Of a stretch of DNA of 10,113 nt, positions 504 to 10,113 are shown in pieces. Each line of letters begins with the position of its first letter. The first letter of the stretch is position 1. Below the pieces are notes generated by a model. That model saw only the letters and a program-made list of their open reading frames with translations. It had not been told where the DNA came from and ran no database searches. The DNA is from an uncultured beta proteobacterium. Lineage in GTDB: Bacteria > Pseudomonadota > Gammaproteobacteria > Burkholderiales > Burkholderiaceae_C. Made by a program: the position numbers and the translations under genes. The stretch lies in NCBI GenBank assembly GCA_903920405.1, contig CAIXMC010000055.1, positions 1-10,113 on the forward strand. Reading direction: 5' to 3'.

Positions 504-1361
504 TTAATCTTTGGGACTAAAAACAATCGTCAGGGGACTGACAATTTTTCCATCGGTATCGCGTGGTAGCACTTCGGTCTTGTCAATGGCCTTGATGACG
601 GCATCATCCCAGGCTTGATGACCGCTGGATTTAACCAATTTGCGTCCGATGATGGTGCCGTCCGACGATGTTCGCACCTCTACCTCAGCCGTTGGGTTGC
701 CCAGAACATCTTCTGTAAACACAATATTGGGTTTGATGCGGGCACGAATGCGTCCGGCATAACCGGCAGATGGTCCGTATGACTTTTGTGCTGTGCCTGT
801 GGTCTTGGCATTGGCCGATCCGTCTGAACCCGCCATGCCCAATGATCGCTGAATTTGATCTTGATGCAGGGCTTCGAGTTGTTTGGGGTCAAGTGCTGTA
901 CTTTTCCTGGCTGTAGCAGCCTGACGTACTCGCTCTGCCTGTTTTTCCTTTTCGAGTTTTTCTCGCTTGGCATTTGCATTGGCCAACTTGATTTTTTGTT
1001 GGCGTTCCTTGTCGTTCAGGGCTTTTATCGCCCTTTGCTTTTGCTGGCGCAAGTTTTCCTGTTCCTGGACAATATCAACTTCAGATGGCTCTGGGGATGG
1101 CGGGGTTTCTTCGGGGGGGGCTACAGGCTCTTGTGCAAGCGGCTTTGGGGCTGGAACTAGCGATGGGGGCGCTGCTTCTTGTGGCACGGCAGACCAAAGT
1201 TCGGCCTCGACGCTGATCACTTGCACATCGCGTTGCCAATGCACCCCCCACGTCAAAGCTACCAGCAACAGGCCATGCGCCAGAACCGCCAACACCAGCG
1301 CACGCAATATGCCCGGGGTGACAGGTGGTGCAAATTCAAGCCATTCAGCGCTTTGGTGCAT
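504..1361 (-). CDS. tolA: TolA, inner-membrane/periplasm-spanning protein of the Tol-Pal system
   Basis: TolA links the TolQ-TolR proton-driven motor in the inner membrane to TolB/Pal at the outer membrane, helping outer-membrane constriction at division and envelope integrity. The 285-residue protein has one N-terminal membrane anchor (about 20-40), a proline/glutamate-rich linker (about 58-95), a long Lys/Glu/Gln/Ala-rich coiled-coil stretch (about 96-155), and a C-terminal TonB-like domain (about 200-285) with AGRIRARIKPNIV, an AEVEVRTSSDGTI strand pair and a closing PLTIVFSP strand. It is shorter than the E. coli protein because the helical middle is shorter. It starts 15 bases after tolR ends. 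tolB and pal do not follow; the next gene is convergent. The domain order and position after tolQ and tolR make the call firm. Confidence 0.95.
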   Translation of the reverse strand: MHQSAEWLEFAPPVTPGILRALVLAVLAHGLLLVALTWGVHWQRDVQVISVEAELWSAVPQEAAPPSLVPAPKPLAQEPVAPPEETPPSPEPSEVDIVQEQENLRQQKQRAIKALNDKERQQKIKLANANAKREKLEKEKQAERVRQAATARKSTALDPKQLEALHQDQIQRSLGMAGSDGSANAKTTGTAQKSYGPSAGYAGRIRARIKPNIVFTEDVLGNPTAEVEVRTSSDGTIIGRKLVKSSGHQAWDDAVIKAIDKTEVLPRDTDGKIVSPLTIVFSPKD

Positions 1362-1376
1362 GGTGCATGATTCAAA

Positions 1377-1796
1377 CTAATAGACAATTTGCACCGACAA
1401 GCCCACACGCTCGACACCTGCACGCTGCAAGGTGTCCATCACCCGCACCACAGCTTCGTATTTCACGTTTTTATCAGCGCTGATCACAACTGCTGAATTG
1501 GTTTTGCCGGTTTGCGCCTCTAGGACAGCACGTGCAATGTCCTGGATACCGATAGCCATCGACTTGTCTTTCTGCTTGAGTTCAAGGGTTTCATCCTTGC
1601 CAATGATAATTTGCACCACTTGGTCTGGCGGCTTGGCGGCCCGGCCTACGCTGGGTAAATGAATGACACTGGGTGCAATCAAGGGCGCCGTGACCATGAA
1701 AATAATCAACAGCACAAGCATCACATCAATAAACGGCACCATGTTGATTTCGTTGATGGTGCGGCGTCCCCGCCCACGGTGGATGACAGCAGGCAT
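1377..1796 (-). CDS. tolR: TolR, ExbD-family proton-channel subunit
   Basis: TolR pairs with TolQ to form the proton-driven stator that energises TolA. The 139-residue protein has a short basic cytoplasmic N-terminus (HRGRGRR), one transmembrane helix (about 20-42, VPFIDVMLVLLIIFMVTAPLI) carrying the conserved aspartate Asp24 of the proton path, and a periplasmic domain with the ExbD/TolR pattern ending in VMDTLQRAGVERVGLSVQ. The start is supported by an AAGGA Shine-Dalgarno sequence eight bases upstream. That ribosome site lies just outside a 160-bp repeat element inserted between tolQ and tolR, inside the direct repeat that flanks it. The protein itself appears intact and of normal length. 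Confidence 0.96.
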   Translation of the reverse strand: MPAVIHRGRGRRTINEINMVPFIDVMLVLLIIFMVTAPLIAPSVIHLPSVGRAAKPPDQVVQIIIGKDETLELKQKDKSMAIGIQDIARAVLEAQTGKTNSAVVISADKNVKYEAVVRVMDTLQRAGVERVGLSVQIVY

Positions 1797-1809
1797 GATT
1801 GAATCCTTA

Positions 1810-1969
1810 GGATATGGTCAACAATAAGTTCCGCATTTGGCCGTCAGAGTTGGGATGCAATGCTAGGCGCAAATCGTGCGGTGTGGCCCCAGCCACATAA
1901 GCGATTTGTAACGACGCAGTGCGCCCAAATCTGACGAGCCAAATGCGGAACTTATTATTGACCATATCC
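1810..1969. mobile_element. 160-bp near-palindromic MITE-like element inserted between tolQ and tolR (copy 1)
   Basis: The outer arms, 1810-1841 and 1938-1969 (beginning GGATATGGTCAA), are reverse complements at 31 of 32 positions. The pairing continues through 1842-1854 against 1924-1936. A nested apical hairpin follows (CAAATCG 1870-1876 with 1902-1908; TGTGGC 1882-1887 with 1892-1897). An 8-bp direct repeat, ATCCTTAG, lies at 1803-1810 and 1966-1973. With perfectly symmetric ends the duplicated target would be the 3-bp TTA at 1807-1809 and 1970-1972. The element has no start-to-stop frame of its own; frames crossing it are accidental. A second copy begins at 9977. The size, long terminal inverted repeats and lack of coding fit a non-autonomous miniature element moved by a transposase elsewhere, which is an inference. 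In the tolQ-tolR message it would fold into one long stem-loop. Confidence 0.85.
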
Positions 1970-2662
1970 TTAGTGCCCAGAGGCCGATTGGGACCCCACA
2001 TTGCGTTGCAAAATATTGGAAAACTCTTCAATAAAGGTTTCCAGCCGAATGGCGGTGCGGTCAATATCTCGCGCAAAACGGTTGTAAGCCACTACAGCCG
2101 GAATGGCAGCAAACAACCCAATCGCGGTGGCAACCAGAGCCTCTGCAATACCAGGGGCTACAGTCGCCAGCGTGACTTGTGTGAGCGCAGCCAAGCCCGT
2201 AAAGGCATGCATGATGCCCCAGACTGTGCCAAACAAACCAACGTAAGGCGACACCGAACCCACGGAAGCCAAAAATGACAAATGGGTTTCAACCACGTCC
2301 ATTTCACGCTGAAAACTTGCTCGCATGGCGCGCCGTGCACCGTCCATCAGTGTGCCGGGGTCGGTGATGCGACGCTCGCGCAGTTTTTGGTATTCACGCA
2401 TACCGCTGGCAAAAATACGCTCCATCGGCCCAGCCGTTCGCGCATTTTTGGCTGCTGCCGCGTACAAATCATTGAGGCTGCTGCCTGACCAAAATTCACG
2501 CTCAAAATTGTCGTTGAGAGATTTGACTTTTCCTAAAGAAAACAGTTTGCGAAAAATGGCTGCCCAACTGGCCATGGAAATCATCACCAGCAGCAACATG
2601 ACGAGTTGCACCACCAGGCTGGCGTTTTGCACCAGAATCCAAATTGAAAGGTCTTGGTTCAT
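1970..2662 (-). CDS. tolQ: TolQ, ExbB/MotA-family motor subunit
   Basis: TolQ forms the multimeric inner-membrane channel that, with TolR, converts proton flow into movement of TolA. The 230-residue protein has the family's three membrane helices: about 14-36, about 128-152 (with GLFGTVWGIMHAF) and about 168-194 (with GIAEALVATAIGLFAAIPAVVAYN). A cytoplasmic loop lies between the first two. Conserved threonines sit in helices 2 and 3 (Thr146, Thr179), as expected for the ion path. Its ATG overlaps the ybgC stop (ATGA), which suggests translational coupling, and there is little Shine-Dalgarno sequence. Its TAA stop at 1970-1972 lies exactly at the junction with the inserted palindromic element, within the flanking direct repeat, so the insertion did not alter the protein. 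Confidence 0.96.
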   Translation of the reverse strand: MNQDLSIWILVQNASLVVQLVMLLLVMISMASWAAIFRKLFSLGKVKSLNDNFEREFWSGSSLNDLYAAAAKNARTAGPMERIFASGMREYQKLRERRITDPGTLMDGARRAMRASFQREMDVVETHLSFLASVGSVSPYVGLFGTVWGIMHAFTGLAALTQVTLATVAPGIAEALVATAIGLFAAIPAVVAYNRFARDIDRTAIRLETFIEEFSNILQRNVGSQSASGH

Positions 2663-5222: not shown

Positions 5223-5333
5223 ACGAAAAAAGTGGACGCGAAGGGGAGTTTATCGCGAATTATCGTTGTATGGCATTCACCCTATCTGTACGGGTGCGTT
5301 TCAAACTGATGTGGAATTTTATGTAGCTACAGT

Positions 5334-5362: not shown

Positions 5363-5419
5363 GTTTTTTTGTATAACAAATTAGCCTCTAGCCCCCGTCC
5401 TGCTTGCGTAGTTAGCTAT
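5363..5419 (-). repeat. 57-bp intergenic repeat, copy B
   Basis: This is the reverse-complement copy of 328-384 (about 51 of 57 identical, no gaps). On the minus strand it lies downstream of the kinase gene in the same relative orientation as copy A lies downstream of the recC-like gene. It sits inside the 5292-5512 element. The AT-rich end beyond it (TTTTTTTAATAG, 5419-5430) is not shared with copy A. Confidence 0.8.
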
Positions 5420-5543
5420 TTTTTTAATAGTAAAAATAGGAGAACACATTCGTCAAACTCATCTTTTGTATGCGGCCAGGTTGGCTGTTCCACATCACTT
5501 TAAATCGCACCCGATGAACCAGGCACTGATAGATTTCGACCAC

Positions 5544-9168: not shown

Positions 9169-9294
9169 GGGTGCGTTTCAAAGTGATGTGGTGCAATATA
9201 AAAACCAAATCCCCCCTAACCCCCCTTTTTCAAAAGGGGGTTAGGGGGGATTTGGATGTCGCACCCCAAAGCCACATCACTTTGAAACGCACCC
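9169..9294. mobile_element. 126-bp element with perfect 23-bp terminal inverted repeats around a C/G-rich hairpin
   Basis: The ends 9169-9191 (GGGTGCGTTTC...TGATGTGG) and 9272-9294 are perfect reverse complements over 23 bp, with a further GGTGC/GCACC pairing just inside. They match the ends of 5292-5512. Between them lies a very strong hairpin (9205-9255) unrelated to the inside of the other element. GTAAA occurs at 9161-9165 and 9295-9299, but three bases separate the first from the repeat, so a target duplication is unproven. No coding capacity. Confidence 0.75.
9200..9255 (-). terminator. Strong hairpin with T-tract, minus-strand intrinsic terminator between rpsT and the kinase gene
   Basis: The arms 9205-9229 and 9232-9255 (CCAAATCCCCCCTAAC... 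against GTTAGGGGGGATTTGG) pair along about 24 bp with one bulged C. On the minus strand the stem is followed directly by TTTTT (9204-9200) and then ATAT. This has the form of an intrinsic terminator for transcripts coming from rpsT. The plus strand lacks the T-run. A very similar CCCCCCTAACCCCCC hairpin is, as I recall, a common dispersed palindrome in several environmental bacterial groups. Confidence 0.55.
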
Positions 9295-9872: not shown

Positions 9873-9976
9873 GCATCGCAACCAATCCATACCAGAGCTT
9901 GACGGGATTAGTCGCTTTACTATTTACTAGCTACGGACTCAATAATTTTGCGGATTCTAGCAGCCTGTCAAACTTA

Positions 9977-10113
9977 GGATGTGGTCAGTAATAAGTTCCC
10001 CATTTGGCCGTCAGAGTTGGGATGCAATGCTAGGCGCAAATCGCGCGGTGTGGCCATGCCACATAAGCGATTTGTAACGACGCAGTGCGCCCAAATCTGA
10101 CGAGCCAAATGGG
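9977..10113. mobile_element. Second copy of the 160-bp palindromic element, cut by the window edge
   Basis: This copy lies in the same orientation as the one at 1810-1969 and is nearly identical over 137 bp: about eight substitutions and one single-base gap. As in copy 1, the first base follows TTA (9974-9976). The left arm and the start of the right arm are visible; the last ~23 bases lie beyond the window. Differences cluster at the ends and in the apical loop (CCCA versus CAT between GTGGC and GCCAC). The loop-closing stems are unchanged. It lies upstream of rpsT. Confidence 0.85.

Follow-up and report, generated by a model that had tools for sequence, protein, structure and literature searches.

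Insertion sequences of the IS1031 group, within the IS5 family, are described in the available passages of PMC12016507 as preferring TNA targets and as producing exclusively 3-bp direct repeats. Among miniature elements, the closest published case of an insertion tolerated by an operon is, in the excerpts consulted, the Chunjie MITE of Geobacter uraniireducens: a title cited in PMC10969869 reportedly concerns an operon insertion that left operon structure undisturbed, and the excerpted text gives lengths of 178-235 bp and 37 additional copies and describes the disruption of one copy of a phosphate uptake operon. The excerpt of PMC2229807 covers two further groups, namely the Correia/NEMIS elements of Neisseria, which occur in a 155-bp form and for which RNase III cleavage of the RNA has been proposed, and RUP of Streptococcus pneumoniae, which inserts in TA-containing targets and has ends like those of IS630-Spn1. 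REP and BIME sequences are extragenic palindromes of high copy number (PMC2817692, in part), REPs being 20-40 bp long (PMC3733652, in part).

The element analysed here, a 160-bp palindrome located between tolQ and tolR, shares several of these traits. As in the partial descriptions cited, it is short, highly repeated and bounded by terminal inverted repeats like Correia/NEMIS and RUP (PMC2229807), a high-copy extragenic palindrome like REP/BIME (PMC2817692), and a MITE inside an operon like Chunjie (PMC10969869), these likenesses to Correia/NEMIS, RUP and Chunjie being by description only. It differs from REPs in its length and its target duplications (PMC3733652), from RUP in duplicating a 3-bp TWA triplet instead of using a target that contains TA (PMC2229807), and from Chunjie in being shorter, the latter being moreover described as disruptive in the excerpt (PMC10969869). 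Its use of TWA and of 3 bp falls within the TNA pattern of the IS1031 subgroup, of which ISLrh is an example in the passages of PMC12016507. Unlike members of that subgroup, it has no transposase; profiles PF13586 and PF13340 have no match in either of the two genomes that carry the family, and its ends differ by eye from the ISLrh end GAACCTGTCTAGTATCT, the only IS1031-group end compared (PMC12016507, in part). Very probably, the element is one copy of a lineage-restricted, MITE-like palindrome family that was inserted into the tolQ TAA by a TWA-choosing, 3-bp-duplicating transposase resembling the IS1031 type. This reading is built on the observed boundaries of the element, the 3-bp duplication of its family, its absence from the tolQ-tolR junction of a sister genome, and the intact genes on either side.

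The window, i.e., the whole stretch of 10,113 nucleotides analysed, corresponds to contig C55 in a draft genome of 2.68 Mb (458 contigs, 89.8% complete). Its minus strand carries ybgC, tolQ, tolR and tolA in this order; the NCBIfam profiles of ybgC, TolQ and TolA are matched above their cut-offs. tolQ (1970-2662, minus strand, 230 aa) is intact and scores 283.9 bits with TIGR02796 (cut-off 221), tolR (1377-1796, minus strand, 139 aa) is intact and has TIGR02801 as its best match, at 119.4 bits just below the curated cut-off of 127.3, and tolA (504-1361, minus strand), the next gene of the operon, exceeds the cut-off of TIGR02794. The first-pass annotation had recognised a palindromic element between tolQ and tolR that leaves both proteins intact; the sequence, the open reading frames and the profile matches confirm its presence, and the reading frames also confirm that TolQ and TolR are whole. 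The near-perfect palindrome, GGATATGGTCAACAATAAG...CTTATTATTGACCATATCC, occupies positions 1810-1969 without assigned strand and ends in GGATATGGTCAAYAATAAG, its limits being set by the sequence, by its inverted repeat (I3, arms 94% complementary), by the ends of the family and by the alignment of copies. Folded as single-stranded DNA, positions 1795-1985 reach -67.2 kcal/mol against a shuffle mean of -23.9 (z = -13.2), and none of 200 shuffles folds as well as the native DNA. An Rfam search of the window at the gathering score returned no match. Two mechanical reading frames of at least 80 aa overlap the element (1807-2076, minus strand; 1919-2278, plus strand), and both run into tolQ in other frames. 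A second copy (9977-10113, no assigned strand), recognised through direct repeats D1/D2, is cut by the contig end and has the triplet TTA at 9974-9976.

The ends of the family were defined from 309 ends and 109 two-sided copies, the latter restricted in the script to 90-200 bp with at least 12 nt of flank per side, and 91 copies were aligned. As expected of short, non-coding MITEs, 81 of the 109 two-sided copies measure 159-160 bp, and terminal inverted repeats are shared across copies. The bases immediately outside the 309 ends (matched with up to 2 mismatches) are T in 96%, A or T in 96% (45% and 51%) and A in 94%, the triplet being preceded by C in 50%. Exact flank repeats of 3, 2, 1 and 0 bp are found in 71, 14, 1 and 23 of the two-sided copies, respectively, the 3-bp repeat being imperfect in 38, and none of the 109 has a flank repeat longer than 3 bp. 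TAA accounts for 39 of the 71 exact triplets and TTA for 30, with one TTG and one TTT. The target duplication of the family is thus of fixed length, 3 bp, with the sequence TWA. MITEs of the RUP or IS630 type duplicate 2 bp, and the counts given above, 71 against 14 of 109, depart from such a TA-only duplication.

The first-pass annotation had assumed a duplication of 8 bp, and the repeat on which it relied, ATCCTTAG, is literally present at 1803-1810 and 1966-1973 with a spacing of 163 bp. That an 8-bp-duplicating transposon copied CTAAGGAT on insertion has nevertheless next to no probability: flank repeats above 3 bp are absent from the two-sided copies, empty sites elsewhere carry a single triplet and not 8 bp, and ATCC falls, when 91 copies are aligned, within the conserved end of the element. 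The 8-bp duplication was rejected on the flank-repeat statistics of the family. Because the 3-bp repeat dominates the family and is never exceeded, the element is assigned to 1810-1969, with TTA as the duplicated triplet. On the plus strand, the left 8-bp repeat (1803-1810) consists of native ATCC, the duplicated TTA and the first G of the element, and the right one (1966-1973) of the last ATCC of the element, TTA and a native G; the five extra bases are native flank fortuitously equal to the element ends. Counted in the register of the first reading, repeats of at least 8 bp occur in 6 of the 109 two-sided copies. The duplication statistics place the tolR-side copy of the triplet at 1807-1809 (TTA on the plus strand, TAA on the coding strand) and, together with the end of the reading frame, the tolQ-side copy at 1970-1972, where it is the tolQ stop codon TAA on the coding strand; neither copy is given a strand. 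A longer direct repeat flanking an insertion is therefore, as a matter of caution, not necessarily its target duplication.

Removal of 163 bp yields CACTAAGGATTCAATCATG on the coding strand and shortens the tolQ-tolR gap from 173 nt to 10 nt, exactly as had been predicted. Despite the insertion, tolQ ends on its own TAA, and tolR retains AAGGA, spacer and ATG. The Shine-Dalgarno-like AAGGA of tolR (1804-1808, minus strand) is composed of native GGA and of AA from the duplicated TAA; GGAT behind the tolQ stop is element DNA, and GGATTCAATC ahead of tolR is native. The proposal that the insertion split two overlapping signals and provided each gene with its own copy stands as far as both the stop and AAGGA are kept. 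It does not stand in its details, since only TAA and not 8 bp was duplicated, the tolQ-side GGAT belongs to the element, and the tolR-side AAGGA owes only its AA to the duplication. Both genes are intact because the three duplicated bases happen to be the tolQ stop codon. In mechanistic terms, a transposase would pick a TWA triplet and duplicate 3 bp, as IS1031-type IS5 transposases do; the triplet hit at this junction would have been the tolQ stop TAA, and the duplication would recreate the stop and leave GGA, spacer and start of tolR untouched, making the insertion presumably near neutral and allowing the copy to persist.

In the sister genome (G097), whose TolQ is 97% identical, no element is found at tolQ-tolR. 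The junction reads CACTAAAGGTAAAGGATTCAGTCATG, with 7 extra nt and one substitution relative to the predicted empty site, and exact CACTAAGGATTCAATCATG was not found in the sister; the expectation of an empty site in relatives is met by the absence of the element and missed in the letters of the junction. A 6-bp tandem duplication of TAAAGG together with one base change in the sister would explain this difference. Gaps of 1-33 nt and no element characterise tolQ-tolR in 20 congeners, nine loci outside the genus, where the tolR start was extrapolated, being left out of the count, and 5 further congeners checked at this junction also lack the element. The element is therefore not a feature of all tolQ-tolR junctions, and the relatives examined are free of it there. 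These comparisons also bear on the assembly, in which a high-copy repeat in a 458-contig draft could have joined two unrelated contigs. Such a chimera is extremely improbable, as the genes on the two sides of the element still follow one another as ybgC-tolQ-tolR-tolA, TTA flanks it on both sides, and tolQ, tolR and tolA follow in the same order in the sister.

The sister carries a copy of its own at tolR-tolA, about 157 bp long with TAA on both sides, at a site that is empty in the source genome, where genome comparison locates the plus-strand TAA at 1378-1380 (no assigned strand). By eye, the tolR stop TAG at this sister copy (L161/L091) is re-formed with the first G of the element. A first comparison set 113 two-sided copies (59 from the source genome and 54 from the sister) against the available loci of the other genome: the sister spans the sites of source-genome copies L014, L137 and L105 without the element, and at one site (L104/L222) both genomes carry it. 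Among the eight rows scored as empty, L188, L210 and L027 were not counted (70-78% matches), and L219 shows a 6-nt difference. In a second comparison, 24 of 35 eligible further source-genome copies were queried; ten are spanned in the sister without the element (one of them, L061, with a 4-nt gap beside the site), 13 have no spanning match, and one (L021) is spanned with an 11-nt element stub. At five of the ten element-free sites (L003, L007, L010, L025 and L029) the sister triplet is one base off, being TAG, CAA, TTG, TCA or, in L007, the other TWA, and both triplet copies in the filled genome are TWA. The stub, a remnant of the element end at the orthologous sister locus L251, is bracketed by a pair of AACAAT words, one belonging to the element and the other to the flank, which suggests that the palindrome was lost by slippage or deletion between these short repeats. 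Filled and empty orthologous sites, as expected of a mobile MITE, and the different tol joints filled in the two genomes indicate that the family was moving at about the time when the two species separated.

The terminal 19-mer GGATATGGTCAAYAATAAG has 179 matches per strand in the draft genome (up to 2 mismatches) and no control match, which corresponds to about 180 copies if each copy contributes one end per strand. At up to 1 mismatch, two of 89 genomes of the genus are positive, the source genome with 102/100 matches and the sister with 130/139, and the 87 others have no end match. Both are drafts with many copies near contig ends. Among 399 family-level genomes, four besides the source genome have a single 2-mismatch match each; these are taken as chance, since two other genomes match the reversed control pattern. 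At least six Bacteroidetes records with one exact 19-mer match each are likewise taken as chance. Searches of plasmids and phages for the element, and of viral contigs for its exact end, gave no match. No description of the family was found in the open-licence literature searched, and the element 12-mer retrieved from open-licence papers, among the matches listed, unrelated subjects only. The family is thus a new, lineage-specific and MITE-like one that duplicates TWA, and one of its copies occupies the tolQ stop codon.

A transposase associated with these ends was not found through PF01609, PF13586 or PF13340 in the two draft genomes. PF13586 and PF13340 each gave zero matches in both, and PF01609 gave one match per genome, with no pair of element ends in the stretch examined and, in one of the two stretches, a lone 12-mer end match with 2 mismatches. 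These two matches look like transposases of IS1634 and IS4 type. Of the interiors adjoining 348 ends, the 40 commonest include nothing in more than two copies apart from the MITE and nested repeats, and an autonomous copy is thus not apparent among them. The mobiliser may have been lost, may lie outside the bins, or may belong to a family beyond those three profiles.

Other repeats occur in and around the window. A second family, GGGTGCGTTTCAAAGTGATGTGG and its complement, lies at 5292-5314, 5490-5512, 9169-9191 and 9272-9294, flanks a CCAAATCCCCCCTAACCCCCC hairpin (9205-9255), and is also represented by pieces just inside some ends of the tolQ-tolR element family. A third, dispersed intergenic repeat forms a 73-nt inverted pair (312-384 and 5363-5435, 86% complementary) about 5 kb apart, and a local palindrome with 36-nt arms (392-427 and 472-507, 78%) lies directly downstream of tolA and overlaps its last bases. 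The right flanks of source-genome copies L002, L006, L011, L017, L020, L028 and L134 share TAAGTGGGAAGC or a near form, as if these copies sat beside a second common repeat.

Whether the family seeks out stop codons can be judged from 242 ends that have a TWA flank and sufficient surrounding sequence. Of these, 98 face a gene end, and in 16 of the 98 the triplet coincides exactly with the stop. Compared with TWA sites lying within 200, 100 or 60 nt after a gene end, landing on a stop has an odds ratio of 2.9 (p = 0.0007), 2.3 (p = 0.012) or 2.1 (p = 0.038), respectively, an excess that would fit specific targeting of stop codons or ribosome-binding sites. When the comparison is confined to TWA sites no more than 30 nt from a stop, however, the odds ratio is 1.5 (p = 0.27), and proximity to gene ends together with the guaranteed TWA of a TAA stop therefore explains much of the excess; such targeting is very unlikely. 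The null model relies on reading-frame heuristics at sister loci rather than on a curated annotation, and each TWA site enters it twice, once per orientation; a cruder one (86 stops against 2249 other sites), which probably overcounts non-coding sites, was set aside. A separate preference for stop codons was held unlikely on the 30-nt comparison. On the simplest reading, insertions persist when they fall close to the end of a gene, where the TAA of a stop always offers a TWA site that can be hit without harm; some true preference may exist as well. Layout was scored for the 86 copies that have 450 nt or more of sequence to either side: same-strand genes flank 48, convergent genes 10 and divergent genes 9, and 19 are unclassified. 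By the same heuristic, 11 of the 86 occupy same-strand junctions that would span no more than 60 nt if the element were removed. One such short-gap junction in the sister is, from the protein text and by eye, presumably pyrH-frr.

At the RNA level, the expectation that any transcript crossing tolQ-tolR gains a long stem-loop is supported, the element alone folding at about -106 kcal/mol. The resulting hairpin might have been selected at operon junctions as a processing site or stabiliser that tunes TolQ:TolR, and the pairing of the 91 aligned copies can be read in this way: 95.5% of cells are paired, 15 pairs show two-sided changes, and the covariation exceeds all 500 shuffles and every slid version, although relatedness alone can exceed shuffles. 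Different insertions at tolQ-tolR and tolR-tolA in two sister genomes point in the same direction. Yet a single dinucleotide exchange, with CC/GG in 40-42 copies and GT/AC in 30-31, separates two arm forms and supplies 61 of the 83 two-sided cells; 11 copies mix these forms, and at two positions of the stem 39-40 of the 91 copies are unpaired. For these reasons the covariation is no proof of selection on RNA, and with the mixed genomic layout of the 86 copies and a sister that manages without the element at tolQ-tolR, selection for a functional hairpin is unlikely.

The copy may all the same affect expression as a tolerated insertion, the likely consequence being a strong intercistronic hairpin that sets tolQ termination and tolR initiation 173 nt apart. 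It may be cut by RNase III, a fate of this type being plausible here. At two positions of the tolR AAGGA, the predicted unpaired probability falls from 0.74 and 0.64 in the joined empty site to 0.20 and 0.15 with the element; no conclusion on accessibility is drawn from this, because the element-free sister is predicted to be lower still (0.11-0.15 at the first four positions). It is tempting to imagine that the hairpin family repeatedly rewired operons at the RNA level, through placement at stop codons that keeps proteins intact and through RNase III-type processing, with tolQRA cut at different joints in the two sisters, but we give this idea only a slim chance. In that scenario, the coincidental 8-bp repeat on either side of the palindrome would additionally let the tolQ-tolR insertion be reversed easily and precisely.

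The tolQ-tolR copy is an ordinary but cleanly documented example of a selfish element that an operon tolerates. It illustrates that such a palindrome can spread throughout a small genome, even into the joints of housekeeping operons, without breaking genes, and that any TAA stop codon can be hit harmlessly when the 3 bp duplicated are TAA. The sister pair, with its filled and empty sites, offers a usable system for studying the effects of intercistronic hairpins on operon expression.
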